DNA of 64,000 nucleotides from Flavimobilis rhizosphaerae (GTDB lineage Bacteria > Actinomycetota > Actinomycetes > Actinomycetales > Cellulomonadaceae), in assembly GCF_014852685.1 (NCBI RefSeq), contig NZ_JACZDF010000008.1:62001-126000 (forward strand), read 5' to 3'. The notes below the pieces were generated by a model. It ran no database searches, had not been told where the DNA came from, and saw only the letters and a program-made list of their open reading frames with translations. Below, piece after piece: positions 46,089-61,397 of the stretch. The translations under genes and the position numbers were made by a program. Within the stretch, counting starts at the first letter, position 1. Every line of letters starts with the position of its first letter.

Positions 46089-47288
46089 GTGACCGACCTG
46101 TTCTCCCAGCCCCAGCCCCGTGCGCCCCAGGCATCGCAGCCTGCGCGTTCCCGTGCTGCGAGCCGGAACAACCCTGCTGCTCGCCGCCGTCGCAAGCAGC
46201 GGCGGATGCGACTTGCCGTCATCATCGTGGCTGCTCTTGTCGTCGTCGGCGGCACGGGCGTCTTCCTCGCTGGCAAGCTGCCCGAGCTGTTCTCGACGGA
46301 GAAGGTCGTCGCGGACTACCCAGGGCCGGGCAGCGGTGAGGCTCTCGTCAAGGTTCCCCGCGGGGCGTCGAACTCTGCGATCGGCGCGGCGCTCGTCGAC
46401 GCGGGCGTCGTGAAGTCGCAGGAGGCGTTCGCGGAGGCGCTGAGCGCGCACGCGACGGCGCAGGGCACGGCGGCCGTCCTCAGCTACGGCACATACTCGC
46501 TCAAGGAGGGCATGACGGCGAAGGACGCGCTCGCCGCAATGCTCGACCGTAAGAACCTCAAGCAGGACGGGGTGACGGTCATCGAGGGGCGCTGGGTGTC
46601 CGAGACGTTCGAACGACTCTCGAGCGTCACGGGGATCCCCCTCGAGAACTTCGAGAAGGCCGCTGAGGACACCGATGCGCTCGGGCTGCCGGAGGTCGCC
46701 AAGGGTGATCTCGAGGGTTGGCTCGCACCTGCGACGTACCCGTTCGAGAGCGACACGACCGCGGAGGACCTGCTCTCGACGATGATCGCGAAGCAGAAGA
46801 CTGTTCTTGATGATCTGGGTGTCGACCTCAAGGATGCGCACGAGCTCTTGACGAAGGCATCGATTGTCGAGGCCGAGTCGCACGCTGACGACCGGGCGAA
46901 GGTGGCACGAGTCATCGAGAACCGCCTCGAGCAGGGGTGGACGCTCGGCATGGACTCGACCGTGCTGTACATCCTGGGCAAGCGGTCGGCCGACATGGGC
47001 ATCTCGAAGGCCGACCTCGACAACGACAGCCCCTACAACACGCGTAAGCACGCGGGCCTCCCGCCGGGACCGATCGGGTCGCCGGGCAAGGCCTCGATCG
47101 AGGCCGCGCTCAAGCCGGAGCCCGGAAACTGGATGTTCTTCGTCACCGTCAACGGTGAGACCGGTGAGACGGTGTTCTCCGAGACCGCTGTCGAGCACGC
47201 CGCCGCCAAGCTCCGCTTCCAGGAATGGCAGAAGGACTACAACGAGCGGATGGCCGCGAAGGAGAATGACGAGGAGACGTCCGAGTGA
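46089..47288 (+). CDS. mltG: Endolytic murein transglycosylase MltG
   Basis: A 399-aa enzyme: a basic cytoplasmic N-terminus, one transmembrane helix (about 43-63, AVIIVAALVVVGGTGVFLAG), a LysM-like domain, and the YceG catalytic domain with the glutamate in TKASIVEAESHADDRAKVARV, then MDSTVLYILG and SPYNTRKHAGLPPGPIGSPG. It cleaves nascent glycan strands to set their length. GTG 46089 has GAAGGA upstream. Overlaps aroE (GTGA). Confidence 0.92.
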   Translation: MTDLFSQPQPRAPQASQPARSRAASRNNPAARRRRKQRRMRLAVIIVAALVVVGGTGVFLAGKLPELFSTEKVVADYPGPGSGEALVKVPRGASNSAIGAALVDAGVVKSQEAFAEALSAHATAQGTAAVLSYGTYSLKEGMTAKDALAAMLDRKNLKQDGVTVIEGRWVSETFERLSSVTGIPLENFEKAAEDTDALGLPEVAKGDLEGWLAPATYPFESDTTAEDLLSTMIAKQKTVLDDLGVDLKDAHELLTKASIVEAESHADDRAKVARVIENRLEQGWTLGMDSTVLYILGKRSADMGISKADLDNDSPYNTRKHAGLPPGPIGSPGKASIEAALKPEPGNWMFFVTVNGETGETVFSETAVEHAAAKLRFQEWQKDYNERMAAKENDEETSE

Positions 47289-48154
47289 CCCGTGCGGGGG
47301 TCCTCGGCCATCCGATCGAGCACTCGCTGTCGCCCGTCCTTCACCGCGCCGCGTATGCGGCGCTCGGGCTCGACTGGGAGTACGACCGGCACGACGTCAC
47401 GGAGGACGAGCTCGGCGCGTTCCTTGCCGAGTGCGGTCCGGAGTGGGCGGGCCTGAGCCTCACGATGCCGCTCAAGCAGACGGCGCTCGGCCTGTGCGAC
47501 CACGTCGAGCCTCTCGCCGAGGTCGTCGGTGCGGTCAACACGGTGCTGCTGCAGCGATCAGGTCGTGTGCGCACCGTCGTCGGCGCGAACACGGACGTCC
47601 ACGGGATCGTTGCTGCGCTCCGAGAGGCGGGCTACTGCACGCCAGAAGGGCGGGCCGCCCGGGCCGTCGTGCTCGGCGCCGGGGCGACGGCCGCCTCGAC
47701 GCTCGCCGCGCTCGGCGAGCTCGGCATCACCGACCCGCTCGTGCTCGTGCGGTCGCTCGCACGCACGGGATCGCTGCGTCGTGCAGCCCACCGCATGGGT
47801 GTTGAGCCGACGTTCGGGCGGCTCGAGGACGCGCCACGGGCACTCGTCGGCGCGGACGTCGTCGTCTCGACCGTGCCCGGCGCGGGAGCCGACGCCGTCG
47901 CGGACGGACTCGTCACCCGTGGCGAGAACGTCGGGGGAGTGCTGCTCGACGTCGTCTACGACCCGCGGCCCACGGCGCTGCAGGCGGCGTGGCGCCGCCT
48001 GGGCGGCGTCGACGCCCCGGGGGAGCGCATGCTCCTCCACCAGGCGGCCGAGCAGGTGCGCCTCATGACGGGCCACGTGCCGCCGCTCGTGGCCATGAGC
48101 GACGCGCTCGAGGCGGAGCTCGCGCGCCGCGGGTCGACCGACGCCATCACGTAA
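47285..48154 (+). CDS. aroE: Shikimate dehydrogenase
   Basis: A 289-aa NADPH-dependent enzyme, dehydroshikimate to shikimate. GHPIEHSLSPVLHRAAYAAL (S-x-S substrate site), LTMPLKQTAL (the catalytic Lys), AVNTVLL, ANTDVHGIVAAL and nucleotide fold VLGAGATAASTLAALGEL, with VSTVPGAGAD and LLDVVYDPRPTALQAAW. The rest of the aro cluster resumes 12 kb away at aroC, after the pilus locus. Confidence 0.92.
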   Translation: MTRAGVLGHPIEHSLSPVLHRAAYAALGLDWEYDRHDVTEDELGAFLAECGPEWAGLSLTMPLKQTALGLCDHVEPLAEVVGAVNTVLLQRSGRVRTVVGANTDVHGIVAALREAGYCTPEGRAARAVVLGAGATAASTLAALGELGITDPLVLVRSLARTGSLRRAAHRMGVEPTFGRLEDAPRALVGADVVVSTVPGAGADAVADGLVTRGENVGGVLLDVVYDPRPTALQAAWRRLGGVDAPGERMLLHQAAEQVRLMTGHVPPLVAMSDALEAELARRGSTDAIT

Positions 48155-48180
48155 TGATCCTGTGAGAACGCGTTCATCCG

Positions 48181-48209
48181 CTTCAGAGAACGTCGCAGTC
48201 TGCCGATAA
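48181..48209 (+). promoter_or_regulatory. sigma28 (FliA/WhiG)-type promoter of pilB
   Basis: GCCGATAAC (48202-48210) is a perfect sigma28 -10. The -35 (TTCAGAG, 48182-48188, 13 bp upstream) is a weak match to CTCAAGT. A start near 48216 gives a leader of about 36 nt before the pilB ATG. Confidence 0.55.
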
Positions 48210-48251
48210 CCCGAGGTGCACCATCCGCGGTGCGACGGGAGGACGGCAGAC

Positions 48252-49931
48252 ATGAAGCAGCTCGGTGAGATCCTGCTCGAGGAGGGCCTCGTCGACGAGG
48301 CCCAGCTCATGCACGCGCTCGACGTGCAGATCGAACGCGGGTCGTCGCTCGGGCGCGTTCTCGTCGAGCTGGGCATCCTCTCGGAGGACGACCTCGTCCG
48401 CGCGCTCGCCCAGCAGGTGGGTCTCGAGTACGTGGACCTCGACGAGTATCCGGTCGACAGGGCCGCGGTGGCGGCCGTCCCGGGCTCCGTCTGCCGTCGG
48501 TACAACGCGCTGCCGGTGCGCTACGACGGCGGCGTCCTCGTCGTCGCGATGGCGGACCCGGGCAACGTCATGGCCGTCGACGACATGCGATCGGTCTCGG
48601 GGATGCCCATCCGCACCGCCGTCGCGTCGCACGACCCGCTGGCACGTGCGATCGACCGCTACGTTCGCGCCGACGGGGAGCTCGAGAACCTCCAGAACGT
48701 CCTCGAGGAGGAGCAGAACGCGACGCTCGAGGAGCTCGACCTCGCAAATCTCGGGAACGTCTCCGACGAGGACGCGCCTATCGTCCGCTACGTCAACCTG
48801 CTCGTCACGCAGGCGATCACCGACCGCGCGTCCGATATCCACATCGAGCCGGCCGAGCACGAGCTGCGCGTCCGGTACCGCATTGACGGCGTGCTTCACG
48901 AGATGCAGCGGTCTCCTAAGCAGATCGCCAACGGAGTGATCTCTCGTGTCAAGATCCTCTCGGACATCGACATCGCGGAGCGGCGCAAGCCGCAGGACGG
49001 TCGTATGTCGGTGACGCACAACGGCAAGAAGATCGACCTTCGTGTCGCGACGCTGCCGACGGTGTGGGGCGAGAAGATCGTCATGCGAATCCTCGACAAC
49101 TCGACCGCGCGGCTCGACCTGCGCGACCTGTCCTTCGGCGAGGAGAACTACCGGATCTACGAGGAGTCGTACAAGAAGCCCTACGGCATGATCCTCGTGA
49201 CGGGCCCGACGGGGTCGGGCAAGTCGACGACGCTGTACGCGACGCTCAACGCGGTCTCGAAGCCGGAGATCAACGTCATCACGGTCGAGGACCCGGTCGA
49301 GTACCGGCTCGATGGCATCAACCAGGTGCAGGTCAACCCGAAGGCGGGTCTGACGTTCGCGAGCGCGCTGCGCTCGATCCTGCGATCGGACCCGGACGTG
49401 GTGCTGCTCGGTGAGATCCGTGACCACGAGACGGCGCAGATCGCGATCGAGGCAGCGCTCACGGGTCACCTCGTGCTGTCGACGCTCCACACGAACGACG
49501 CGCCGTCGGCGGTGACGCGTCTCGTCGAGATGGGGATCGAGCCGTTCCTCGTGGGCTCGGCGCTCGACTGCGTCGTCGCGCAGCGGCTTGCGCGCAAGCT
49601 GTGCGACAAGTGCAAGGAGCCGTACGTGCCGTCCGACGAGGAGCTCCTCGGTGCTCGGTTCCCGTGGATGCCGGGGGAGGCCAAGCCCACGTTGCACCGA
49701 CCGGCCGGGTGCACGTCCTGCTCGAAGACCGGCTACCGGGGGCGGCTCGCGCTCCACGAGGTCATGCAGGTGACCGAGGCGCTCGAGCGGCACGCAGTCG
49801 CTGGCTCGTCGGCTGCCGAGATCTCGAAGTCGGCGATCGCGGATGGCATGACGACGCTGCGCGACGACGGTTGGCGGAAGGTCGTCGAAGGTCGGACGTC
49901 GATCGAGGAGATCCTCCGCGTCGTCGCGTGA
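48252..49931 (+). CDS. pilB: Type IV pilus extension ATPase PilB
   Basis: A 559-aa GspE/PilB secretion ATPase that powers pilin polymerisation. N-terminal MshEN-type domain (LGEILLEEGLVDEAQLMHAL, LGRVLVELGILSEDDLVRAL), then SDIHIEPAEHELRVRYRIDG, Walker A ILVTGPTGSGKSTTLYATLN, Asp box VITVEDPVEYRLDGINQVQV, Walker B RSDPDVVLLGEIRDHETAQI, His box GHLVLSTLHTNDAPSA and the tetracysteine zinc site CDKCKEP..CTSCSKTGYRGR. ATG 48252 follows GGGAGGA. It is first gene of the pilus locus, alone between its own sigma28-type promoter and that of pilT. Confidence 0.95.
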   Translation: MKQLGEILLEEGLVDEAQLMHALDVQIERGSSLGRVLVELGILSEDDLVRALAQQVGLEYVDLDEYPVDRAAVAAVPGSVCRRYNALPVRYDGGVLVVAMADPGNVMAVDDMRSVSGMPIRTAVASHDPLARAIDRYVRADGELENLQNVLEEEQNATLEELDLANLGNVSDEDAPIVRYVNLLVTQAITDRASDIHIEPAEHELRVRYRIDGVLHEMQRSPKQIANGVISRVKILSDIDIAERRKPQDGRMSVTHNGKKIDLRVATLPTVWGEKIVMRILDNSTARLDLRDLSFGEENYRIYEESYKKPYGMILVTGPTGSGKSTTLYATLNAVSKPEINVITVEDPVEYRLDGINQVQVNPKAGLTFASALRSILRSDPDVVLLGEIRDHETAQIAIEAALTGHLVLSTLHTNDAPSAVTRLVEMGIEPFLVGSALDCVVAQRLARKLCDKCKEPYVPSDEELLGARFPWMPGEAKPTLHRPAGCTSCSKTGYRGRLALHEVMQVTEALERHAVAGSSAAEISKSAIADGMTTLRDDGWRKVVEGRTSIEEILRVVA

Positions 49932-49946
49932 ATATCGTCCGGATCG

Positions 49947-49975
49947 CTCAAGTGCGTGGTCTGGCGCGCCGATAA
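49947..49975 (+). promoter_or_regulatory. sigma28 (FliA/WhiG)-type promoter of pilT-pilC
   Basis: CTCAAGT (49947-49953), 14 bp, GCCGATAA (49968-49975). Predicted start near 49982, leader about 44 nt to the pilT GTG. Confidence 0.75.
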
Positions 49976-50025
49976 CGAGATGACGCGTGTGCCGCGCGTC
50001 GCAGTCGAGAGGCGAGAGGCTCAAC

Positions 50026-51885
50026 GTGAGCGAGATCTTCACCCCGGAACCTGGCCGCGGGGCTTCCTTTGCGAACGCGCTTGCGTCGTCCCGCGTGGAT
50101 CCGGAGCAGACCTGGGCACGTCAGGCGGAGACTCCGCCGGAGCCGGTTCGTCGCGAGCCCGTCCTCGGACAGCAGTGGGTTGCGGCATCCCGCGCAGCCG
50201 CAGCGGGTCCCGTGGCTGCTCCGGCGGCCGCACCCCAGGCGGCGTACGACCCGTTGCAGCGAAGTGCGGCGGTGCGCGCTGTGAGCCCGCAGAGCCGAGT
50301 CGCGCAGTCGCAGGCGAGCCCGGGGGCACCGGGCGGCGCGCCCGTCGGGCACGCCGGTCCGCCGACGCGGGCTGCAGCTCCTGCATCCGCTGCGGGGCGG
50401 GCTCCTGCACAGCAGGCGGCCTCGCCGCACGCGGCGCGCGCGCAGGCTGACTCGCCCCGGGCCGCGGCTCCGGTGCTCAACGGGCGGGTCGGCATGGCGC
50501 AGCGTTCCGAGGACGGCGATGTCAGTCTCGACCACCTGCTGCGTCGGACTGTCGAGGAGCGGGGTTCCGACCTTCACCTCACGGCGCGCGCGCGTCCGTC
50601 GATCCGCCGGGACGGAAAGCTGCAGCCGCTCGACGACACCGAGGTGCTCGAGGGCGAGGCGCTTCGACGCTCCATCTACCAGATCCTCTCGCAGAAGCAG
50701 CGCGAGCGTTTCGAGGAGAACCTCGAGCTGGATCTCGCGTACCAGGTTCCCGGCGGATCACGCTTCCGTGTCAACGTGTACCAGCAGCGGGACAACGTCG
50801 GTGCGGCGTTCCGTGTCATCCCGACGGAGATCAAGCCGCTCGAGGACCTCGGCGTGCCGGCGATCGTCGGGTCGTTCGCCAACCTGCCGCGTGGCCTCGT
50901 CCTTGTCACCGGGCCGACGGGCTCGGGCAAGTCGACGACGCTTGCCTCGGTCATCGACCTTGCGAACCGGACGCGCGCCGAGCACATCATGACGGTCGAG
51001 GACCCGATCGAGTTCCTTCACGAGCACAAGAAGGCGATCGTCAACCAGCGTGAGGTCGGCACCGACACGACGTCGTTCGGGCAGGCGCTCAAGCACGTGC
51101 TGCGTCAGGACCCGGACATCATCCTCGTCGGTGAGCTGCGTGACCTCGAGACGATCTCGGTCGCGCTCACGGCTGCCGAGACGGGCCACCTCGTCTTTGC
51201 GACCCTCCACACGCAGGACGCCGCCCAGACGATCGACCGCATCATCGACGTGTTCCCCCCTGAGCAGCAGGACCAGGTCCGGGTGCAGCTCGCGGGCGCG
51301 ATCCAGGGCGTCGTCTGCCAGACGCTCTGCAAGCGGTCGGACGGTCCTGGCCGTGCGGTTGCGACCGAGGTGATGGTGGCGACGCCAGCGATCCGGAACC
51401 TCATCCGTGAGGGCAAGACGCACCAGATCTACTCCGCGCTCCAGGCGGGCAAGTCTCTCGGCATGCACTCGATGGATCAGCACCTGGCGGACCTCGTGCG
51501 GCAGGGGCGCATCTCGTACGAGACGGGCCTGGAGAAGTGTCACTTCATCGAGGACTTCAACCGTCTCTCGGGGCGGTCCGGCAGCACGGGTGCCGGAATC
51601 GCTGCGTCGTCGATGGGCGCTCAGGCGGTCGACGAGGAGGCGATGGCGGAGATCAACGCCCAGGTGTACGGCGGCGCACCTGCTGGTGGCGGCTATCAGC
51701 CGGGTGGCGGCTACCAGCCGGGCGGCGGGCTCCCGACGGCTCCCGGTGGGTACCAGTCCGGCGGCGCACAGGGCGCTGGCGGACCCTTCGCGCCGACGGG
51801 CGGTGACGTCCCGGCCGCTGGACACGCGCCCGTGTTCGACCCGGGCGCCTACGTGCCCGGCCAGATCGGTAGGAGCGAGCGATGA
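50026..51885 (+). CDS. pilT: Type IV pilus retraction ATPase PilT with long low-complexity extensions
   Basis: A 619-aa protein, far longer than the usual 340-370. Residues 1-170 are Ala/Pro/Gln-rich and disordered; the PilT core follows: SLDHLLRRTVEERGSDLHLT, Walker A VLVTGPTGSGKSTTLASVID, VEDPIEFLHEHKKAIVNQRE, Walker B DPDIILVGELRDLETISVAL, His box GHLVFATLHTQDAAQTIDRI and the PilT-specific AIRNLIREGKTHQIYSAL. There is no tetracysteine, which separates it from PilB. The last 80 residues hold GGYQPGG repeats. GTG 50026 has GAGAGG six nt upstream. ATGA overlap with pilC. Confidence 0.93.
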   Translation: MSEIFTPEPGRGASFANALASSRVDPEQTWARQAETPPEPVRREPVLGQQWVAASRAAAAGPVAAPAAAPQAAYDPLQRSAAVRAVSPQSRVAQSQASPGAPGGAPVGHAGPPTRAAAPASAAGRAPAQQAASPHAARAQADSPRAAAPVLNGRVGMAQRSEDGDVSLDHLLRRTVEERGSDLHLTARARPSIRRDGKLQPLDDTEVLEGEALRRSIYQILSQKQRERFEENLELDLAYQVPGGSRFRVNVYQQRDNVGAAFRVIPTEIKPLEDLGVPAIVGSFANLPRGLVLVTGPTGSGKSTTLASVIDLANRTRAEHIMTVEDPIEFLHEHKKAIVNQREVGTDTTSFGQALKHVLRQDPDIILVGELRDLETISVALTAAETGHLVFATLHTQDAAQTIDRIIDVFPPEQQDQVRVQLAGAIQGVVCQTLCKRSDGPGRAVATEVMVATPAIRNLIREGKTHQIYSALQAGKSLGMHSMDQHLADLVRQGRISYETGLEKCHFIEDFNRLSGRSGSTGAGIAASSMGAQAVDEEAMAEINAQVYGGAPAGGGYQPGGGYQPGGGLPTAPGGYQSGGAQGAGGPFAPTGGDVPAAGHAPVFDPGAYVPGQIGRSER

Positions 51886-53114
51886 GCACGTCGACGAGCG
51901 GACGGCTGTACGAGTACAAGGTCCGCGACAAGCAGGGCCGGATCGTCAAGGGGCGGATCGAGGCCGCCAACGAGGGCGCGGTCGCGAGCCGTCTCAAGAC
52001 GATGGGGGTGGCCCCGCTCGAGATCTCCGAGGTCTCGACGACGGGCCTCAACGCGGAGATCAAGCTGGGCTTCGGTTCGGGGGTCGGCCTCAAGGACCTC
52101 GCGGTCATGACGCGTCAGCTCGCGACGATGGTCTCGGCAGGCCTCTCGCTCCTGCGCGCTGTCTCGATCCTTGCCGAGCAGACCGAGAACAAGGTGCTCG
52201 CAGGCATCCTCGGGCAGGTCCGCGGCGACATCGAGACGGGTCACTCGCTCTCGGTCGCGTTCGCGAAGCATCCGCGCGAGTTCCCGCCGATCATGATCAA
52301 CATGGTGCGTGCGGGTGAGACCGGCGGCTTCCTCGAGAAGTCCCTGCTGTCGATCGCCGCGAACTTCGAGGCTGAGGTCAAGCTCCAGCAGAAGGTGAAG
52401 TCCGCGATGACCTATCCGGTCGTCGTCTTCGTCATGGCGATCCTCGCGGTCATCGGCATGCTCCTCTTCATCGTGCCGATCTTCTCGGGCATGTTCGAGT
52501 CGCTCGGTGGTGAGCTGCCGGCGCCGACGAAGGTGCTCGTGTGGCTCTCGGGCGTCCTCAAGGTGGCCGGCATCCCCATCGCGCTCGTGCTCGTCGCGAT
52601 CGCGATCTGGTGGGGGCGTCACAAGAACGACGAGTCGGTGCGTCGCAAGGCGGACCCGATGAAGCTCAAGGCGCCGATCTTCGGTCCGCTCGCGCAGAAG
52701 ATCTCGATCTCGCGCTTCACGCGGAACTTCGGCACGATGCTCGGCTCGGGCGTGCCGATCCTCCTCGCGCTCGACATCGTCGGCGAGACGGCCGGCAACA
52801 TCGTCGTCGAGGATGCGGTCAAGGATGTTCGCGAGGCGGTCCGCAAGGGCGAGGCGCTGACCGCACCACTGTCGCGGCACTCCGTGTTCCCGCCGATGGT
52901 CGTGCAGATGATGGCGGTCGGTGAGGACTCGGGCTCGCTCGAGCTCATGCTCGAGAAGATCTCGGACTTCTACGACGACGAGGTCGAGGCGACGACGGAG
53001 CAGCTGACCTCGCTCATCGAGCCGCTCATGATCGGAGTCCTGGGTGTCATCGTCGGCGGCATGCTCATCGCTCTCTACATGCCGATCTTCTCGATCTTCG
53101 AGCTCATCGGGTGA
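51882..53114 (+). CDS. pilC: Type IV pilus inner-membrane platform protein PilC
   Basis: A 410-aa GspF-family protein with two copies of the T2SSF domain, each ending in hydrophobic helices (VVFVMAILAVIGMLLFIVPI in the first half; PLMIGVLGVIVGGMLIALYM in the second). LYEYKVRDKQGRIVKGRIEA at the start, MTRQLATMVSAGLSLLRAVS and FTRNFGTMLGSGVPILLALD mark the repeats. It is the rotor platform on which PilB/PilT act. Coupled to pilT. Confidence 0.95.
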   Translation: MSTSTSGRLYEYKVRDKQGRIVKGRIEAANEGAVASRLKTMGVAPLEISEVSTTGLNAEIKLGFGSGVGLKDLAVMTRQLATMVSAGLSLLRAVSILAEQTENKVLAGILGQVRGDIETGHSLSVAFAKHPREFPPIMINMVRAGETGGFLEKSLLSIAANFEAEVKLQQKVKSAMTYPVVVFVMAILAVIGMLLFIVPIFSGMFESLGGELPAPTKVLVWLSGVLKVAGIPIALVLVAIAIWWGRHKNDESVRRKADPMKLKAPIFGPLAQKISISRFTRNFGTMLGSGVPILLALDIVGETAGNIVVEDAVKDVREAVRKGEALTAPLSRHSVFPPMVVQMMAVGEDSGSLELMLEKISDFYDDEVEATTEQLTSLIEPLMIGVLGVIVGGMLIALYMPIFSIFELIG

Positions 53115-53141
53115 TTGCGCCGAAGAAGTTGCATGTCAGGC

Positions 53142-53169
53142 CTCAAGTCTGTGCGCCGGCTGCCGATAC
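53142..53169 (+). promoter_or_regulatory. sigma28 (FliA/WhiG)-type promoter of pilA
   Basis: CTCAAGT (53142-53148), 13 bp, GCCGATAC (53162-53169). Predicted start near 53176, leader about 55 nt. Confidence 0.7.
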
Positions 53170-53230
53170 AGAGATGACCGGCCCGAGAGGGTTGGTCACC
53201 ACCACTCAGTTTGAACTCTAGGAGATCATC

Positions 53231-53659
53231 ATGATCGCTCGCGTTTCCAAGGCGCTCAACAAGAAGGACGGAGACAAGGGCTTCACCCTCGTCGAGCTCC
53301 TCGTCGTCGTCATCATCATCGGCATCCTCGCGGCCATCGCGATCCCGATGTTCCTCAAGCAGCGTGAGAAGGCCTGGGAGAAGCAGGTCGTCTCGGACAT
53401 GAAGAACTCGATCACGGCCGCCGAGGCGTTCGCGACGTCGAACAACGGCAAGTACAACGGCATGACGACGGCCACGCTCGTCACTAACGGCTACCGCGCG
53501 ACTCCCGACGTGACGATCACGGCCACGCCCAAGAGCACGGGTCTTGGCTACGACCTCACGGGCTCGCACGCGAACCTCACGGGCAAGTCCTGGACGTACA
53601 ACTCCGACGAGGGAATCATCAAGGAAGGCGCGGCCCCGACGACCCCGGCGAATCCGTGA
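53231..53659 (+). CDS. pilA: Major type IV pilin PilA
   Basis: A 142-aa prepilin. Leader of 17 residues ending DKG, then FTLVELLVVVIIIGILAAIA: class III cleavage G|F and Glu at mature position 5. The mature protein is about 125 residues, with a globular part rich in Thr/Asn (NNGKYNGMTTATLVTNGYRA) and no cysteines, so the usual disulfide-bonded D-region is absent. Excellent SD (AGGAG, 53220-53224). A strong terminator follows, consistent with a highly expressed single-gene transcript. Confidence 0.94.
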   Translation: MIARVSKALNKKDGDKGFTLVELLVVVIIIGILAAIAIPMFLKQREKAWEKQVVSDMKNSITAAEAFATSNNGKYNGMTTATLVTNGYRATPDVTITATPKSTGLGYDLTGSHANLTGKSWTYNSDEGIIKEGAAPTTPANP

Positions 53660-53672
53660 CGCTCTGACGTCG

Positions 53673-53710
53673 ATGCAGGCGCACAGGGTCTCGACCCTGT
53701 GCGCCTGCAT
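53673..53710 (+). terminator. Strong terminator after pilA
   Basis: Perfect 18-bp arms (53673-53690 with 53693-53710), followed by a T-rich stretch, 13 nt after the pilA stop. The genes behind it have no clear promoter, so partial read-through is likely. Confidence 0.88.
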
Positions 53711-53743
53711 ACCGTTGCCGTTCTGATGCCGCCTGGGGAGAAG

Positions 53744-54235
53744 ATGCGCACCAACCGCTCGCTGTCGTCGGACCGAGGCATGAGCCTCGCCGAGCTCCTC
53801 GTTGCGATGACCATCGCGATGATCGTGCTCGCCTCGCTCGTGCCCTTCCTCGTGAGCGCCTTCCGTTCGTCGGCGAGCAGCGTGCGGACCGCAGGAGCGA
53901 CCGAGCTCGTCAACACCCGCATCGACCTTGCCCAGTCACGCGCGAGCTCGGGCACGTGCGTGGCCTTCGGGAAGTTCGTCGGCACGTACGCCGCCGCGCA
54001 GACCGTGACCGACTCGCGGCGCAAGATCACGTACGAGGTGACCCAGGCCGTCGGTGCCGCCGACGGTACGACGCTCACCACCGAGGCGGCTGCGACCGCC
54101 CACTGCCGTGATGTCGAGACCTCAGCCGCCTCCGGCACTACCTACTACCTCGCCGTCAAGGTCGTCGACAAGGGCCTCAACAAGGAGCTCGCCCGTGCGG
54201 CGACCTGGGTCGCCGTCCCGGGGTTCGGGGCATGA
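53744..54235 (+). CDS. Minor pilin / pseudopilin (PilV-like)
   Basis: A 163-aa prepilin-like protein. 12-residue leader MRTNRSLSSDRG, then MSLAELLVAMTIAMIVLASL with Glu at mature position 5. Two cysteines (GTCVAF, AHCRDV) could form a disulfide. ATG 53744 has GGGGAG close upstream; ATG 53726 would add six residues to the leader. Coupled to the next gene by ATGA. The role (priming complex at the pilus tip) is inferred from order and family. Confidence 0.82.
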   Translation: MRTNRSLSSDRGMSLAELLVAMTIAMIVLASLVPFLVSAFRSSASSVRTAGATELVNTRIDLAQSRASSGTCVAFGKFVGTYAAAQTVTDSRRKITYEVTQAVGAADGTTLTTEAAATAHCRDVETSAASGTTYYLAVKVVDKGLNKELARAATWVAVPGFGA

Positions 54236-54885
54236 CCGCGATGATCCAGCGTCTGCGCGCGCGTCACGTCCGGTCCGGGGATGCGGGCCTGACGCTCGTC
54301 GAGCTCCTCGTCTACATGCTCCTGCTGGGCATCGTCATGACGATCATCCTCACGATGACCGTGACGACACTCCGCAAGCAGACCGAGGTCACCCGGATCT
54401 CCCAGGCGAACGACACCGCACAGAACATCGTCAACGAGGTCGATCTTCTCGTCTCGAACGCCTCGGCGTTCACCGTGCGCTCGATCGGGTCGGACATCGT
54501 CGTCCTCTCCCAGACACGCAGCACGCAGGACGGCGCCGCCGAGTTCGGCGTGACCCGCTGCGCAGCTCTCTACTACACTGCCGACACCCGCCAGGTGTAC
54601 GTCTCCCGCCGCTTTGCCGACCCGGCCGGGGCTAACCAGACGCCCAAGCCGCTCACCTCGCGTCCAACGTTCGGTCCAGGGTGGACCAGGCTCGCCGAAG
54701 GTGTCTCCCCGGGTGACGGGAGCAGTGCGGTCTTCGCGCTCAAGAACGTCGCTGGCGTGACGGACGCCACCAAGCTCGTGACGTCGCTCGCGATCGACAC
54801 GACGACCGGGAAGCCCCCGGTGACCCTCACGACCACGACAGGGACGCGCGGCCTCGGGGTCGCGACCGAAGGACGGTGCTGGTGA
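54232..54885 (+). CDS. Minor pilin / pseudopilin (PilW-like)
   Basis: A 217-aa prepilin-like protein. 19-residue leader ending GDAG, then LTLVELLVYMLLLGIVMTII with Glu at mature position 5. The C-terminal part is beta-rich and Thr-rich, with two cysteines (TRCAAL and the penultimate Cys of GRCW). It overlaps its neighbours on both sides (ATGA, TGATG) and is probably cotranslated with them. Confidence 0.82.
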   Translation: MTAMIQRLRARHVRSGDAGLTLVELLVYMLLLGIVMTIILTMTVTTLRKQTEVTRISQANDTAQNIVNEVDLLVSNASAFTVRSIGSDIVVLSQTRSTQDGAAEFGVTRCAALYYTADTRQVYVSRRFADPAGANQTPKPLTSRPTFGPGWTRLAEGVSPGDGSSAVFALKNVAGVTDATKLVTSLAIDTTTGKPPVTLTTTTGTRGLGVATEGRCW

Positions 54886-56585
54886 TGCGCAGGTTGGCTC
54901 GGCCCACGGACGACAAGGGCAATGCCATGGTGCTCGTGCTCGCGAGCGTCATGCTCATCACCTTGCTCATGGGGGTCATGCTCAGCTCCCTGATGTTCAC
55001 GATCGGCCAGACGACGGCGACCCGCGCGCACTCCCAGGCGCAGGCCGCCGCAGAGGGCGGGGCGCAGCAGGTTGGACGCGCACTTCTCACCCGGTCAGAG
55101 GCAGAGTCGACAGCCTGCACGGGTGTGACCGGACTGGATCCCCACGGGTGGACCGACTACACCGTCGACAACGTCCGTTACCAGGCGGTCAAGAACGGCC
55201 CTTGGGTGGAGTGTCTCTCGGGCGGAAAGATCCCCAAGCTTGCGGAGGCCGTCCAGGTGCAGACGACGGGCTTCGCCAAGTCGATCGGCCAGAACGGGAA
55301 CACCCGGGGCAACAAGGCGACGGTCGAGGTGACGTTCACGCGTCCGAAGTCGATGGGGCTCGACCAGGCCGTGTTCGGGGATCTCGACGTGCTGTCGAAC
55401 ACGAACTTCAACCTCTACCCGGACCCAGCCCACCCTTCGCGCCCGCACACGGACAAGTCGCCGGACATCGTGACGAACAAGAAGTGGACGTGTCCCGCTT
55501 CGGGAACGCTCTCGGGGAGCGTGTATGCGCTCGGTGGGGCGACGGTGAGCAACAACTGCGTCATCGAGGGTGACTTCTACGTCTCCGGCTCGTTGCACAT
55601 CGGGTTCAAGCTCGAGGTGCACGGCAACCTCTATCTCGACGGAAAGCTCTCTGGGTCCCAGACCGTGGTCCGCGGTGACACGCTCGTCAACGGTAACGTC
55701 GAGCTGTCCTCCGAGGGGCACTCGTTCTGGGGAGACGTCCGGGCCTACGGGAAGTTCACATCGTCCAACAAACTGCCAGCAGGCTTTGTCGGCGGCACCT
55801 TCTACACCACGGGCGCGGCCGACACAGGGTGGAACAGCAAGCAGACCACCATGGCGTTGGGGTCACGGTTCGTGCCGAACTACGTCGTGCCGGCAGGCGA
55901 CAAGACCTGGCTCCTGCCGTCGATCCTCGACAACCCCATGAACCCGCAGACGGCCGAGGACAAGAAGACGATGTCCTTCCCGATGCTCAAGGACGACCAG
56001 GAACCCTGGGACACGTTCACTGAGGCCGACTGGTCGACGCTCACCGCCGGAAGCCTTGAGGGCAGCCGGTGCAACGCATACAACTACAGCAAGCCGCTCG
56101 TCATCGAGACGCCGACGAAGGTCGATCTCACCGACTGCGCCACGTGGACCGTCGGGCACATCAACATCGTCCTCAACGCCGACCTCGTGATCTTCACGAA
56201 GAACGCGGTGAAGAACGGCTCCTGGACCGTGCGCACTGGCAACGGACCGGGCGACGAGAAGCGCCACACCCTCTACATCGTCGCTCTTCCTGACGCGGGG
56301 CAGACCGCCTGCGCGGGGAACAAGGGCAAGAACATCACGTGGTCGACCAACGGGTGGAGCCAGCTCGACACGGATGGCAAGCTCCGTTCGAAGGTCGTGC
56401 TCTACTCGTCGGGCAAGACGACGCTGAGCTCGAAGCCGAGCGGCACCTTCAACGGACAGCTCTACGGCTGCGAGGTGAGTGCGCAGTCCGGCATCGACAT
56501 GATCTTCGCCCAGGGCGGCGAGGACTACACCAACACGCTGTGGGACCTGCGGGTCGGTGCCATGCGTGATATCACGGTCCGGTGA
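54885..56585 (+). CDS. PilX-like large minor-pilin protein with bactofilin-like solenoid
   Basis: A 566-aa protein. Short basic leader MRRLARPTDDKG, then a hydrophobic helix NAMVLVLASVMLITLLMGVM that lacks Glu5, as in GspK/PilX-type pilins. Residues about 200-300 contain short turn-rich repeats (SGSVYALGGATVSNNCVIEG, SLHIGFKLEVHGNLYLDGKL) of the bactofilin or polymer-forming beta-helix kind. A C-terminal half of unknown fold follows. There are eight cysteines, against none in PilA. Start: ATG 54885 overlaps the previous stop; GTG 54882 is also possible. Best guess is a pilus-tip or adhesin subunit. Confidence 0.7.
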   Translation: MRRLARPTDDKGNAMVLVLASVMLITLLMGVMLSSLMFTIGQTTATRAHSQAQAAAEGGAQQVGRALLTRSEAESTACTGVTGLDPHGWTDYTVDNVRYQAVKNGPWVECLSGGKIPKLAEAVQVQTTGFAKSIGQNGNTRGNKATVEVTFTRPKSMGLDQAVFGDLDVLSNTNFNLYPDPAHPSRPHTDKSPDIVTNKKWTCPASGTLSGSVYALGGATVSNNCVIEGDFYVSGSLHIGFKLEVHGNLYLDGKLSGSQTVVRGDTLVNGNVELSSEGHSFWGDVRAYGKFTSSNKLPAGFVGGTFYTTGAADTGWNSKQTTMALGSRFVPNYVVPAGDKTWLLPSILDNPMNPQTAEDKKTMSFPMLKDDQEPWDTFTEADWSTLTAGSLEGSRCNAYNYSKPLVIETPTKVDLTDCATWTVGHINIVLNADLVIFTKNAVKNGSWTVRTGNGPGDEKRHTLYIVALPDAGQTACAGNKGKNITWSTNGWSQLDTDGKLRSKVVLYSSGKTTLSSKPSGTFNGQLYGCEVSAQSGIDMIFAQGGEDYTNTLWDLRVGAMRDITVR

Positions 56586-56637
56586 TTCTCTCGCTCACCC
56601 TGTCTGCCCTCGGTGGTCCGACTGCGGCGGATGACGC

Positions 56638-57414
56638 ATGACCGGGGTCGCCATCGTCCTCTCGTGCGTCCTCGGTCTCGCGGTCGGGTCCTTCCTCAAC
56701 GTCGTCGTGTGGCGCGTGCCGCGCGGCGAGTCAGTGGTCCGCCCGGCCTCTCACTGTCCGCGGTGCGAGCACGTGGTGCGCTCACGCGACAACATCCCCG
56801 TCGTCTCGTGGCTGCTGCTGCGGGGCCGGTGCAGGGACTGCGGCGAACCCATCAGCCCCCGCTACCCAGCGGTCGAGCTCGGCACGGCCATCGCCTTCGG
56901 GCTCGTCGCGTGGTGGATCGGCTGGTCGGTGCTCCTGCCTGCCTACCTGTACCTCGCTGCGATCTCGGTGTGCCTGAGCCTCATCGATCTCGACGTGCGA
57001 CGACTTCCTGATGCGATCGTCCTCCCGTCCTGGATCGTCGCACCCGCACTCCTCGGCCTCGCGGCCGTCGCCGAGGGAGACGGCGCTGCGATGCTGCGAG
57101 CGTTGGCCGGTGCTGCAGCAGTCGGCCTGTTCTTCCTCGTCGCCGCGATCGCCTATCCCGCAGGGATGGGGCTCGGTGACGTCAAGCTCTCTCCCGTGCT
57201 GGGCCTCTACCTCGGCTACGTCGGCTGGGGTGCGGTCGTCGTCGGGATGTTCGGCGCGTTCCTGCTCGGCGCGATCGTCGGCGTCGCGGTTCTCGTTGTC
57301 ACGCGTGACCCCAAGGCTGGCATTCCCTTCGGACCGTGGATGATCGTCGGGACCTGGATCGGGCTCGTCGTCGGGCAGTCGCTCTTCGGGAGCTATCTGT
57401 CGCTGCTCGGCTGA
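56638..57414 (+). CDS. pilD: Prepilin peptidase PilD
   Basis: A 258-aa polytopic aspartic protease that cleaves the class III leader and N-methylates mature pilin. LGLAVGSFLNVVVWRVPRGE at the N-terminus; two zinc-type Cys pairs (C40-x2-C43, C65-x2-C68) that mark the bifunctional form; catalytic Asp in LIDLDVRRLPD (D117/D119) and GMGLGDVKL (D181). About seven helices. It is the only prepilin peptidase in view and fits all four prepilin leaders in the locus. Confidence 0.94.
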   Translation: MTGVAIVLSCVLGLAVGSFLNVVVWRVPRGESVVRPASHCPRCEHVVRSRDNIPVVSWLLLRGRCRDCGEPISPRYPAVELGTAIAFGLVAWWIGWSVLLPAYLYLAAISVCLSLIDLDVRRLPDAIVLPSWIVAPALLGLAAVAEGDGAAMLRALAGAAAVGLFFLVAAIAYPAGMGLGDVKLSPVLGLYLGYVGWGAVVVGMFGAFLLGAIVGVAVLVVTRDPKAGIPFGPWMIVGTWIGLVVGQSLFGSYLSLLG

Positions 57415-57438
57415 CCCCGGAGACGGCACGAGCTGAAC

Positions 57439-57467
57439 CTCAAGTCGTGCACCCAAGACGCCGATAA
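57439..57467 (+). promoter_or_regulatory. sigma28 (FliA/WhiG)-type promoter of pilMNO
   Basis: CTCAAGT (57439-57445), 14 bp, GCCGATAA (57460-57467), the same spacing as at pilT. Predicted start near 57474, leader about 38 nt. Confidence 0.75.
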
Positions 57468-57511
57468 CACGTCGGAGCGTCAACGTGGCGTCACGGACGG
57501 AAGGATCACGA

Positions 57512-58570
57512 GTGGCCAGGAGAAAGGTCGTGGGGCTCGATATCGGCACCACGCACGTCCGCGGTGCGGAGGTGAGCTACGGCAGCGGCGGGTCCACCTC
57601 CACGGGCTCGCTCGGGAGCTTCGCGTCGGTCGAGCTGCCTCACGGCGCTGTGCGTGACGGTGAGGTGGTCGAGGTCGAGGTCGTCGCGTCGGCGCTGCGC
57701 ACGCTGTGGAGCAGGGGCAAGTTCTCGACGAAGGACGTGGTCATCGGCATCGGGAACCAGCGTGTCGTCGTCCGCGACCTCGAGGTCGCGGCGATGCCGC
57801 TCGGCCAGCTGCGCAAGTCCCTCGGCTTCCAGGCCGCCGACATCCTCCCCATGGCGGCCGACGACGCTCTCATGGACTACTACCCGATCGCTCAGGGCGA
57901 GGGCCAGAACGGTCCGGTGCTCAACGGGCTCTTCGTCGCCGCCGTGCGCGAGACAGTCGAGCAGAACATCAGCGCGGTCGTGCGCGCCGGGCTCAACCCT
58001 GTGCAGGTCGACCTCAACGCCTTCGCGCTGCTGCGCGCACTGCACCACGGCGAGCGGGTCAACCGAACCGTCGCCTACGTCGATGTGGGCGCGCGCATCA
58101 CGGACATCGTCATCGCGCAGGCCGGCGTGCCGCACTTCGTGCGCATGCTGCCCGCGGGTGGTCAGGACATCACGGATGCGATCGGATCGGTCATGAAGCT
58201 CAACGGCGGCCAGGCCGAGCAGCTCAAACGAGAGATCGGCGTCGGTTTCGCCGTCGCACCCGGCCTCGAGCCGGCAGCCGACGCGGCGACGACCGTCGCG
58301 CGCTCCCTCATCGAGAACGTCCGTAACACGGTCGCGTTCTACACACAGTCCAACCCGCAGAAGCCGGTCGAGCTCCTCGTCCTCAGCGGCGGCGGCGTGC
58401 TCCTGCAGGGCCTGGGGCAGGCGCTCGCGACCGCGACACGTCTCCAGGTGACGCTCGGGCGCGCCGTCGACAACCTCAAGGTCTCGCGCGGCCCTGCCGC
58501 CGCGATCGCTGAGGTCGGCGAGCAGGACGTCACGATCGCCGTGGGACTTGCGACGGCGGTGGCAGCATGA
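57512..58570 (+). CDS. pilM: Type IV pilus assembly protein PilM
   Basis: A 352-aa actin-like ATPase. VVGLDIGTTHVRGAEVSYGS (phosphate 1), TVAYVDVGARITDIVIAQAG (phosphate 2), AVRETVEQNISAVVRAGLNP and LVLSGGGVLLQGLGQALA (adenosine region). It binds the cytoplasmic tail of PilN and links the PilNO ring to the motor. GTG 57512 follows GGAAGGA. Coupled to pilN. Confidence 0.93.
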   Translation: MARRKVVGLDIGTTHVRGAEVSYGSGGSTSTGSLGSFASVELPHGAVRDGEVVEVEVVASALRTLWSRGKFSTKDVVIGIGNQRVVVRDLEVAAMPLGQLRKSLGFQAADILPMAADDALMDYYPIAQGEGQNGPVLNGLFVAAVRETVEQNISAVVRAGLNPVQVDLNAFALLRALHHGERVNRTVAYVDVGARITDIVIAQAGVPHFVRMLPAGGQDITDAIGSVMKLNGGQAEQLKREIGVGFAVAPGLEPAADAATTVARSLIENVRNTVAFYTQSNPQKPVELLVLSGGGVLLQGLGQALATATRLQVTLGRAVDNLKVSRGPAAAIAEVGEQDVTIAVGLATAVAA

Positions 58571-59277
58571 GCCTCCAGCTGAAGATGCCGCGACGCACGC
58601 GCGCCGCGGCGTCGCTCGCCGACGTCGGTGCGCCACCCCTCGCCCAGGTGAACCTCCTGCCTTCAGGCGTACGCAACCTCTCGCGCGAGAGGTTGGTGCG
58701 AAACGTCATGATCCTCGTCGTGCTCGTCGCGGTCGTCCTCGCAGGTCTCCTTTGGCTCATGGGAACACTCACGGTGAGCAGCGCCCAGGACCAGCTCGAC
58801 GTCGCTGAGACCCGCACGCGAACCCTGACGGCGGAGAAGCTCTCGCTCGCTCCGGTCCGTGCGGTCGAGGACCAGCGGGTCACCGCCGAGCTGGCGCAAC
58901 AGGTCGGCATGTCGACGGAGATCGCATGGACGCCACTCGTGGCGGCCATGGCGGCTCAGCTCCCCGAGAACTCCGTCATCAACGAGATCGTCATGGTGCA
59001 GGAAACACCTCTGGCGGTCCTCGAAGCACCGACTGACTCTCTCGTCCCCGGGCGCGTCGCAACCTTCACCGTCGTGACACGCTCGCCCGAGGAGCTCGAG
59101 ACCTCCGAGTGGATCTCTAACCTGGATGCGATTCCGGGCTTCGCCCACGCTCGGATCCTCAAGGTTGTGCGTGGGGGTGACGAGTCGGACGTCTGGTTCG
59201 ACACGACGACAGCCGTGACCGTTGAGGAGAGCGCATTCTCCATGCGTTTCGCCGTCGACGCCGAGGGGGGTAAGTGA
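58567..59277 (+). CDS. pilN: Type IV pilus assembly protein PilN
   Basis: A 236-aa bitopic protein. The cytoplasmic tail contains the PilM-binding motif QVNLLPSGVR (about residues 27-36), a transmembrane helix at about 45-68, a coiled coil and a small extracytoplasmic ferredoxin-like domain (ATFTVVTRSPEELETSEWIS). ATGA overlap with pilM, and it runs into pilO. Confidence 0.9.
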   Translation: MSLQLKMPRRTRAAASLADVGAPPLAQVNLLPSGVRNLSRERLVRNVMILVVLVAVVLAGLLWLMGTLTVSSAQDQLDVAETRTRTLTAEKLSLAPVRAVEDQRVTAELAQQVGMSTEIAWTPLVAAMAAQLPENSVINEIVMVQETPLAVLEAPTDSLVPGRVATFTVVTRSPEELETSEWISNLDAIPGFAHARILKVVRGGDESDVWFDTTTAVTVEESAFSMRFAVDAEGGK

Positions 59278-59279
59278 CT

Positions 59280-60101
59280 ATGGGTGTCTCACGTGACAAG
59301 TTCTGGATCGCGGGCGGCGCAATCGTCGCAGTTCTGATCCTCGTCGCCACGTTCGTGCTGTCCTACAAGCCCGCACTCGACGAGGCGAGCGACCTGGGGG
59401 ACAAGCAGGATCTCGCAGAGATCCAGAACGCGAAGCTCACGGGCGAGATCAAGCAGCTGCGCGCTATCGAGGCGCGTCTTCCGGAGATTCGAAAGCGGAT
59501 CGCTGAGCTGCAGGTCGGCATCCCCGTCGCCGCAAACATCGATGAGTTCGAGGCGTATCTCTCGGAACTCATCCTGGAGAACGACGCCTACCTCCTCGAG
59601 ATCACTGGCCTCGAAGCGCGGGTCGCGGTGCCAACCTCGACCCAGACGGCCGCGCCCTCACCTGCGCCGGCCCCGACAAGCACTGCAGCACCTGAGCCGG
59701 GAGAGGTCACAACGACCGCCGCTCCGATAAGCGACGAGACCGAGAAGCCGGTCGCCGAGCGGGTGCCGTCAAAGGTCCCGGCGATCGAGGGCTTCCATGT
59801 CTTCGACTGGACGATCAGCGTTGGCGGGACCTACGAGCAGGTGTCCGCGATCCTCGAGGCACTCCAGACGACGAGCTCGCGGCACTTCCTGGTGAGCGGG
59901 CTCGAGATCCAGACGTTGCTCGCGGACAAGGCAGCGAGCAACGGCCTGCCTGACCGACCCGCCGGCGAGGTCGACTACAAGATCTCCGGTTCGACCTATG
60001 TGCTCGAAGGGCCGCAGCAGCCCGAGGAGCCCGAGGTCGAGGAGCCGAAGATGCCGTCGACCAAGGACGACCCGTTCGCCGACGTCATCGGCGCCAAGTA
60101 G
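59280..60101 (+). CDS. pilO: Type IV pilus assembly protein PilO
   Basis: A 273-aa bitopic protein. Transmembrane helix at about 11-30, coiled coil (LDEASDLGDKQDLAEIQNAK.. to about 80), and a C-terminal fold FHVFDWTISVGGTYEQVSAI. A Pro/Thr/Ala-rich linker of about 50 residues (about 120-165) interrupts the domain. ATG 59280 is 9 nt after GAGGGGGG; GTG 59274 is an alternative. It partners PilN. No PilP or PilQ follows; the locus ends at a terminator. Confidence 0.88.
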   Translation: MGVSRDKFWIAGGAIVAVLILVATFVLSYKPALDEASDLGDKQDLAEIQNAKLTGEIKQLRAIEARLPEIRKRIAELQVGIPVAANIDEFEAYLSELILENDAYLLEITGLEARVAVPTSTQTAAPSPAPAPTSTAAPEPGEVTTTAAPISDETEKPVAERVPSKVPAIEGFHVFDWTISVGGTYEQVSAILEALQTTSSRHFLVSGLEIQTLLADKAASNGLPDRPAGEVDYKISGSTYVLEGPQQPEEPEVEEPKMPSTKDDPFADVIGAK

Positions 60102-60115
60102 CGACTCTTGATCGC

Positions 60116-60154
60116 CGCCCCCGCCACGACCGCACTGCGGACGTGGCGGGGGCG
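60116..60154 (+). terminator. Terminator ending the pilus locus
   Basis: A 13-bp stem CGCCCCCGCCACG/CGTGGCGGGGGCG (60116-60128 with 60142-60154) with a small inner hairpin, 14 nt after the pilO stop. Confidence 0.88.
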
Positions 60155-60182
60155 TCGTCGTCGCACGTGAAAGGATCGCGTC

Positions 60183-61397
60183 ATGCTGCGCTGGTTGACC
60201 TCAGGTGAGTCTCATGGCCCGTCGCTCGTCGGAGTGATCGAGGGCCTTCCTGCGGGTGTCGAGGTGACGAGCCAGGACGTCCGTGACGCGCTGGCCCGCC
60301 GCCGCCTCGGGTACGGGCGCGGCGCCCGTCAGAAGTTCGAGCAGGACGAGCTCCGCGTGCTCGCGGGCGTGCGCCACGGCGTCACGCAGGGTGGGCCTGT
60401 GACGTTCGAGATCGCGAACTCGGAGTGGCCCAAGTGGGTCGACGTCATGGCGCCGGACCCCGTCGAGTCGTCGGCCCTCCAGGTCGACGCGGGCACGGGC
60501 GACGTCCGTGAGATCGCCCGCAACAAGAAGATCACGCGGCCCCGCCCCGGCCACGCGGACCTCGTCGGCATGCGGAAGTACGGCTTCGACGACGCCCGGC
60601 CCGTCCTCGAGCGTGCCTCCGCACGTGAGACTGCGACACGCGTCGCGCTCGGCGTCTACGCCGCGGCGTTCCTCGAGCAGGCGGTCGGCGTGCGCCTCGT
60701 GTCGCACGTCGTCGGCATCGGTCCCGTCGCCGTCCCCGACGGCGCCGCGATCCCGACGCCCGACGACGTCGCCGCGCTCGACGCCGACCCGGTGCGCTGC
60801 TTCGACGCCACCACGTCGGCCGCGATGGTCGCCGAGATCGACGCCTGCCACAAGGCCGGCGACACGCTCGGGGGAGTGGTCGAGGTCCTCGCCTACGGCG
60901 TGCCGACCGGGCTTGGCACGTACGTCCACTCCGACCGGCGGCTCGACGCACGCCTCGCCGCCGCGATCATGGGCATCCAAGCGTTCAAGGGCGTCGAGGT
61001 CGGCGACGGCTTCCGCACCGCCACCCGACGCGGTTCGCAGGCGCACGACGAGATCGACGTCGCAGGCGGCCGCATCACGCGTGCGACCAACCGCGCCGGC
61101 GGCGTCGAGGGCGGCATGTCCAACGGCGAGGTCGTCCGCGTGCGCGGTGCCATGAAGCCCATCTCGACCGTTCCGCGCGCACTGCGCACCGTCGACACGG
61201 CGACGGGGGAGCCCGCCCAGGCCCAGCACCAACGCTCCGACGTCTGCGCCGTCGCCCCGGCCGCCGTCATCGCCGAAGCCATGGTCGCGCTCACTCTCGC
61301 CGACGCCGTCCTCGAGAAGTTCGGTGGCGACTCCGTCGCCGAGGTCCGCCGCAACTACGAGGCCTATCTCGAGGCAATCCCCGAGCACATGCGCTGA
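60183..61397 (+). CDS. aroC: Chorismate synthase
   Basis: A 404-aa FMN-dependent enzyme, EPSP to chorismate. [119 protein letters not shown] and [21 protein letters not shown] 60183 follows GAAAGGA. It starts the aroC-aroK-aroB group directly downstream of the pilus locus. The shikimate genes feed the chorismate used by PabB. Confidence 0.95.

Follow-up and report, generated by a model that had tools for sequence, protein, structure and literature searches.

The window analysed here, a stretch of 64,000 nucleotides (nt) from the genome of Flavimobilis rhizosphaerae (contig NZ_JACZDF010000008.1, positions 62,001 to 126,000, forward strand), carries between aroE and aroC a type IV pilus cluster arranged as pilB, pilT-pilC, pilA with pilin-like open reading frames (ORFs) and pilD, and pilM with two ORFs. 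Upstream of pilB, pilT, pilA and pilM stand four elements of the sigma28 type, which we interpret as probable promoters of the sigma factor WhiG. All genes of the cluster lie on the + strand, and most of the names are supported by Pfam matches. pilB (48252..49931) encodes the extension ATPase with an MshEN domain (T2SSE 4.1e-141, MshEN 5.5e-20) and pilT (50026..51885) a retraction-type ATPase (T2SSE 7.3e-45), called PilT rather than PilB by its position and by the name used in the initial annotation. The gene for the platform protein, pilC (51882..53114; T2SSF 1.8e-66), is followed by the major-pilin-like pilA (53231..53659; N_methyl, the pilin N-methylation motif, 3e-9), two pilin-like ORFs (53744..54235 and 54232..54885; N_methyl 1.5e-5 and 7.6e-6), an ORF of 566 residues without Pfam match (54885..56585) and the prepilin peptidase gene pilD (56638..57414; A24_N_bact 6e-36, Peptidase_A24 3.2e-11). 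The cluster ends with pilM (57512..58570; PilM_2 5.7e-38, scored on the ORF from 57485) and two ORFs where pilN and pilO would be expected (58567..60101), which have no Pfam match and take their names from position only.

The four elements, all on the + strand, were scored with a weight matrix trained on 80 named pil loci of relatives (L020-L099; site threshold 13 bits). The putative promoters of pilT-pilC (CTCAAG-N15-GCCGATAA, 49947..49975, 28.3 bits) and of pilM and the ORFs that follow it (CTCAAG-N15-GCCGATAA, 57439..57467, 28.1 bits) are the strongest; that of pilB (CTTCAG-N15-GCCGATAA, 48181..48209, 21.8 bits) has a variant -35, and that of pilA (CTCAAG-N14-GCCGATAC, 53142..53169, 21.8 bits) an exceptional gap of 14. 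These sequences, reported before the same four genes by the initial annotation, were confirmed in place: three are perfect pairs of CTCAAGT and GCCGATA (pilT, pilA, pilM) and the fourth, at pilB, is a variant. The distance to the start codon had been put at 36-55 nt; the upstream placement holds, but the distances, counted from the last base of the -10 octamer up to the chosen start, are slightly longer, with 42 nt for pilB (ATG 48252), 50 for pilT (GTG 50026), 61 for pilA (ATG 53231) and 44 for pilM (GTG 57512). The pattern CTCAAGT-N{10,18}-GCCGATA has three matches in the 64 kb (49947, 53142 and 57439, all +) and none in any of 100 shuffles, and GCCGATAA occurs three times (pilB, pilT, pilM) against 0.38 expected, a count reached in 2 of 100 shuffles. 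A published rule for sigma28 promoters takes TAAA as -35 and GCCGATAA as -10 with at most two mismatches in all (PMC8325347). The -10 is perfect at pilB, pilT and pilM and has one mismatch at pilA; the -35 has one mismatch at pilT, pilA and pilM (TCAA inside CTCAAG) and two at pilB (TTCA or TCAG), so the elements stay within the limit of two mismatches without matching the literal TAAA consensus.

The same signal is conserved before the same genes in relatives. Among the named loci, sites of at least 13 bits were found upstream of pilM in 59/64, pilB in 57/73, pilA in 52/77 and pilT in 29/74, compared with 1/65 for aroE, 0/79 for pilC, 1/68 for pilD, 3/61 for pilN, 1/52 for pilO and 1/50 for aroC; shuffled sequence gave 1/288 and the other strand 3/288. 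When the matrix was refined on 40 loci and applied to the other 40, a split that is not fully blind, as the starting matrix had seen all 80, the counts were 25/31 for pilM, 18/34 for pilB, 17/37 for pilA and 8/35 for pilT, with 0/39 for pilC and 0/31 for pilD. At pilB the sites lie 31-91 nt upstream of the gene, at pilM 27-87 nt. At least one site is present in 67 of the 80 loci and, with a threshold of 12 bits and within 300 nt of pilB, pilT, pilA or pilM, in all 16 pil regions taken from genomes with WhiG (eight of them also among the named loci), which bears out the expectation that the motif would be kept in orthologous loci. Two of these 16 sites are weak (G006, 14.3 bits, on a 5.1 kb contig, and G147, 13.9 bits), and the region taken from G142 includes pilM, pilD and pilA without pilB and pilT. 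None of four pil regions from genomes with PilM and without WhiG has such a site; the order contains five such genomes, of which G069, a fragment match, was left out. A chance origin of the elements is ruled out by the shuffles, the reversed control of the genome scan described below and the control genes in the named loci. The pilB promoters of the named loci have a -35 of their own (CTCAGG in 15, CTCACG in 9, CTTCAG in 9 and CTCATC in 7 of 57), and CTCAAG is outside the six commonest -35s at pilB, yet dominant at pilT, pilA and pilM.

The whole genome (3.06 Mb) contains seven matches to CTCAAG-N{11,16}-GCCGATA, and none for the reversed control. Four of them are at pilus genes, three within the window and the fourth upstream of a second pilT-like gene (L004). 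The latter site lies 9 nt before the start codon both here (L004 1501-1550) and in the nearest congener (G001, L324), so that the transcript would be nearly leaderless in both.

The genome encodes one member of the FliA/WhiG family over the cut-off of the family model (260.3 bits, cut-off 189.6), and a 595-residue sigma factor, in which regions 1.2 to 4 are recognised, comes next with 113.6 bits. The fliA or whiG gene that had been anticipated is thus present, and it is of the WhiG class: among solved structures the protein comes closest to the sigma chain of the Streptomyces RsiG-WhiG complex (290 bits, FliA entries 152), and a quick tree places it among WhiG-class genes, with FliA-class genes on a long branch and one FliA-class sequence (L259) misplaced. 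The gene is located on contig C16 between an integrase-family gene and an M23 peptidase gene, the latter followed by rpsB and tsf; Streptomyces whiG is also found beside rpsB-tsf. On these sequence comparisons the single family member is, in our reading, the WhiG ortholog. No FliA-type factor was found by the family model and no candidate for FlhA, the only flagellar family searched, so the genome probably lacks flagella. In each of the five congeners sampled, both FlhA and FliA-type factors are present. FliA as the reader in this genome was considered and ruled out by the same two negative searches.

The distribution of WhiG follows that of pili. In 149 genomes of the order, family members were sorted by bit score, a division of our own, into a WhiG class (at least 189.6 bits) and a FliA class (about 116-189.7 bits), and presences were counted as both/first only/second only/neither. 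WhiG and PilM agree in 141 of the 149 genomes (64/3/5/77), WhiG and FlhA in 126 (53/14/9/73), and FliA-type factors and FlhA in 144 (60/3/2/84); the three genomes with WhiG and no PilM have a completeness of 73-89%. Counted by genus, the values are 24/1/2/34 for WhiG and PilM and 20/5/7/29 for WhiG and FlhA. In five genera (g1, g9, g21, g33 and g42, the own one included) some members have no FlhA, and all sampled members keep WhiG and PilM. At the level of the class (296 genomes), WhiG was counted in 101 of 105 genomes over the cut-off, four (G324, G354, G374, G429; 190-198 bits, FliA-like) being excluded. Without family f37 (27 genomes, taken as Streptomyces), the anti-sigma factor RsiG agrees closely with WhiG (70/8/4/187), and the tie of either to PilM is less tight, with counts of 55/19/19/176 for WhiG and PilM and 56/22/18/173 for RsiG and PilM; with f37 these become 55/46/19/176 and 56/49/18/173. 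Moreover, four genomes of family f31 (L267, L268, L269, L270) have a WhiG-like gene and a match to the RsiG model PF22802 beside pil genes; the strict pattern for binding of cyclic dimeric guanosine monophosphate (c-di-GMP) was not found in these four. The class-level association and the f31 clusters are consistent with an old role of WhiG in the control of pili, in agreement with the report on Rubrobacter (PMC8325347). In a genome without PilM match, a WhiG-like gene and a PF22802 match stand head to head (L271, G286:C1:1480788-1481823).

Pili and flagella differ in the spacing of their elements. With the pattern CT[CT]A, two free bases, a gap of 11-18 and [GAC]CCGAT[AG], flagellar regions of relatives gave 27 sites at gap 14 and 1 at gap 15 in 7 genomes, 33 and 1 in 8 further ones and 7 and 0 in 8 without WhiG, a total of 67 at gap 14 and 2 at gap 15, whereas the 80 named pil loci have 143 at gap 15 and 18 at gap 14 (odds ratio 266, p 2e-38, treating as independent sites that are not). 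The 16 pil regions of WhiG genomes have 29 sites at gap 15 and 3 at gap 14; in the four pil regions without WhiG there is none at either gap. CTCA is continued by the dinucleotide AG at 105 of the 143 pil sites with gap 15, as opposed to 3 of the 67 flagellar sites with gap 14. We consider this spacing pattern almost certainly real; that spacing is what causes the specificity of WhiG and FliA seems rather plausible. Gap 11 is also over-represented in the named loci (19 against about 6 in shuffles), with examples that resemble coding sequence. As the flagellar regions of relatives carry the version with 14 bases, two paralogous sigma factors seem to run pili and flagella as separate regulons. 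Of the regulon proposed in the initial annotation, the part that places pilus genes under a sigma28-type factor is supported; its tie to flagellar state is not, as neither a FlhA candidate nor a FliA-type factor was found here and the flagellar elements of relatives have gap 14. No developmental tie came to light either, in an analysis with no test aimed at one.

WhiG of this genome may have a partner. In the genome searches PF22802 matched 105 of the 296 class genomes and not this one; our first reading, that no RsiG relative exists at all, was overturned by a divergent family with a copy in this genome. Its members are 127-155 residues long, and across 19 sequences 16 columns are invariant. 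A profile from an alignment of these 19 (A1), which does not include the own genome, matched 59 of the 149 genomes, with the own protein of about 135 residues found at 1.7e-33 on contig C14. Matches to the profile or PF22802 agree with WhiG in 145 of the 149 genomes (64/1/3/81), and in the own family all 41 profile matches are in WhiG genomes. The gene usually has a WhiG-type promoter: sites of at least 14 bits stand upstream of 24 of 29 copies, where shuffles would give 0.15 and the opposite strand has none. These regions were not used in training the matrix, and one of 30 loci (L320) was dropped because its signature was not found. Among 30 further profile matches, outside the 29, exact sites also occur just upstream of the copies of G098, G116, G132 and G147. 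In the own genome, CCTCAAG-N15-GCCGATGA precedes the start of the gene by about 46 nt. This arrangement suggests negative feedback.

The c-di-GMP motif E(X)3S(X)2R(X)3Q(X)3D was compared by alignment in 22 sequences of this family. In helix 1, E is found in 0/22, S in 3/22, R in 20/22, Q in 4/22 and D in 22/22; in helix 2, the values are 12/22, 0/22, 11/22, 0/22 and 6/22, so that only R and D of helix 1 are well kept. Because the motif is largely missing and the own copy stays below the cut-off of PF22802, the protein should not be filed as RsiG. That it is an anti-sigma factor of WhiG we consider likely. MshEN domains are able to bind c-di-GMP in other bacteria, and with such a domain in PilB, c-di-GMP might act on the pilus machine rather than on its transcription.

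Taken together, the four elements would be promoters read by WhiG, which would turn on pilB, pilT-pilC, pilA with the pilin-like genes and pilD, pilM with the two ORFs, and the second pilT-like gene as one regulon; in flagellated relatives, a separate FliA would serve the flagella. The promoters of WhiG would be of the form CTCAAG-N15-GCCGAT and those of FliA CTYA-NN-N14-GCCGAT, and one base of spacing together with the AG after CTCA probably helps to keep the two regulons apart. The RsiG-like protein, by binding WhiG, probably completes a loop of negative feedback, and would work like RsiG or FlgM, as an anti-sigma factor under its own sigma factor, without control by c-di-GMP. That WhiG drives these pil promoters we hold to be very probable, and that it controls a pil regulon, with separate flagellar control in relatives, only a little less so. 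For the fullest form of the scheme the chances appear evenly balanced: in Cellulomonadaceae and neighbours, FliA would serve flagella from gap 14 and WhiG pili from gap 15, with a WhiG-induced, c-di-GMP-blind descendant of RsiG checking WhiG, an ancient second-messenger switch rewired into a plain feedback loop.

In the FliA-FlgM flagellar checkpoint the anti-sigma gene is served by its own sigma factor, and here too the candidate anti-sigma gene would be under its own sigma factor, although the system is not known to involve an export step. With the WhiG-RsiG system of Streptomyces the locus shares a WhiG ortholog and an RsiG-related partner, but there WhiG controls sporulation, here apparently pili, and Streptomyces RsiG keeps both c-di-GMP motifs. 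WhiG control of pili is already known from Rubrobacter radiotolerans, in which a (RsiG)2-(c-di-GMP)2-WhiG switch acts on type IV pili and three promoters were mapped in the pilus cluster (PMC8325347). The two systems have in common a WhiG-family factor and, by that account, flagellar-type promoters inside the pilus cluster of a unicellular actinobacterium (PMC8325347). They differ in that here no RsiG exceeds the cut-off and its place is taken by a divergent RsiG-like protein that has lost most of the c-di-GMP motif; in that the gene for this protein has a WhiG-type promoter; in that the -35 here is CTCAAG; and in that relatives have a parallel FliA regulon with other spacing. Moreover, no dgc or pde gene was seen at the exact sites of the genome, in a search that took in neither weaker sites nor the dgc and pde genes themselves. 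The zoospore pili of Actinoplanes missouriensis, as told in the same paper, are under FliA-family factors (PMC8325347); this is again a case of actinomycete pili under a flagellar-type sigma factor, but pili are tied there to flagellated zoospores, and no FlhA and no FliA-type factor were found here. Literature searches, with most subscription journals outside their scope, returned no report of the 14/15 split or of a divergent RsiG in Cellulomonadaceae. A hint from a single locus becomes a scheme that can be tested in many actinobacteria: WhiG, familiar from sporulation in Streptomyces, here has the look of a sigma factor for pili. In the spacing there is a natural case of two sibling sigma factors that may be separated by a single base pair. 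As for the RsiG-like protein, it may be what restrains WhiG where no RsiG that binds c-di-GMP is present, and it raises the question of how an anti-sigma factor that depends on a ligand can lose that ligand.

One other explanation concerns the partner of WhiG. The pil promoters could be of the WhiG type and the RsiG-like protein another WhiG-dependent coiled-coil protein that weakly resembles RsiG, which we regard as rather unlikely. With PF22802 the own protein reaches 18.1 bits, short of the curated cut-off of 27, and most residues of the c-di-GMP motif are lost in its family; over the 149 relatives, PF22802 gives mostly weak matches, in 23 own-family genomes, all with WhiG, but other members reach up to 1.7e-8 and some pass the cut-off (e.g., G082, 36.2 bits). 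RsiG forms an antiparallel coiled coil of two helices, and structure prediction for the RsiG-like protein gave two long helices (predicted local distance difference test, pLDDT, 84-85). RsiG chains occupy four of the first seven rows of one Foldseek search and rank first in another, though non-significantly (E 0.7-1.4 and 0.36-1.2); a profile search of solved chains ranked Rubrobacter RsiG (E 0.19-0.21) after designed proteins and apolipoprotein E, and VIA-align found common coiled coils, with RsiG not among the 50 matches listed. Against this alternative, hhalign aligns the family with RsiG colinearly over both helices (E 6.7e-5, probability only 64), and the co-occurrence with WhiG is that given above. 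Homology to RsiG is thus probable, not proven.

Two further explanations concern the elements themselves. A FliA-type factor might read the pil promoters, with the sites here being relics of a flagellated ancestor or read by WhiG through overlap only. The nearly identical -10 elements of FliA and WhiG, the FlhA and FliA-type factors of the five congeners and the pil sites with gap 14 speak for it, but the factor present in this genome is WhiG, the five genera with FlhA-less members retain WhiG and PilM in all sampled members, and the ratio of gap 15 to gap 14 is 143:18 for pil as against 2:67 for flagellar sites, which makes it very unlikely. Still more improbable are operators of a DNA-binding pilus regulator in place of promoters: only the conservation and regular position before pilB and pilM favour them, and the elements keep promoter-like spacing, go with WhiG, not with PilM alone, and match the published flagellar/WhiG consensus (PMC8325347). 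The reading of the elements as WhiG promoters of a pil regulon, with the RsiG-like protein in feedback, has several observations against it. Thirteen of the 80 named loci have no site, including four Salinibacterium loci and that of marine actinobacterium PHSC20C1; 18 of 161 sites with gap 14 or 15 in these loci have gap 14, and so does the own pilA site, contrary to the pattern of 15 bases. Three of the seven exact CTCAAG sites of the genome (L002, L005, L007) are away from known pilus genes, and the WhiG-PilM association is looser in the class than in the order, where Fisher p-values overstate because the 149 genomes are related. The profile search, finally, found no RsiG-like match in three own-family WhiG genomes (G017, G072, G077).

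As to these three sites, L002 lies between convergent genes and is taken as chance. At L005 (1400-1530), an ORF of 85 residues with a membrane-like end starts 8 nt 3' of the exact site, and at L007 (1200-1370) a zinc-ribbon protein of 133 residues follows 36 nt 3' of it; both are possible further targets of WhiG, neither confirmed. The list of the regulon is incomplete, since exact searches miss weaker sites such as the promoter of the own RsiG-like gene (GCCGATGA). Three other matches in the genome have CTCAT (L001, L003, L006). In congeners, secreted-looking proteins, judged by eye, are encoded behind exact sites at L325, L327, L328 and L330, two of the sites having gap 14.

Compared with the nearest congener (G001) over window positions 47285-61397, the flanks are well conserved (aroC 95% and aroE 91% identity, best segments), and identity within the cluster is 85% for pilB, 69% for pilT, 68% for pilC, 54% for pilM, 51% for pilA, 28% for pilO and 26% for pilN (best segments). 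The pil cluster is apparently replaced, or evolving very fast, while its promoters stay.

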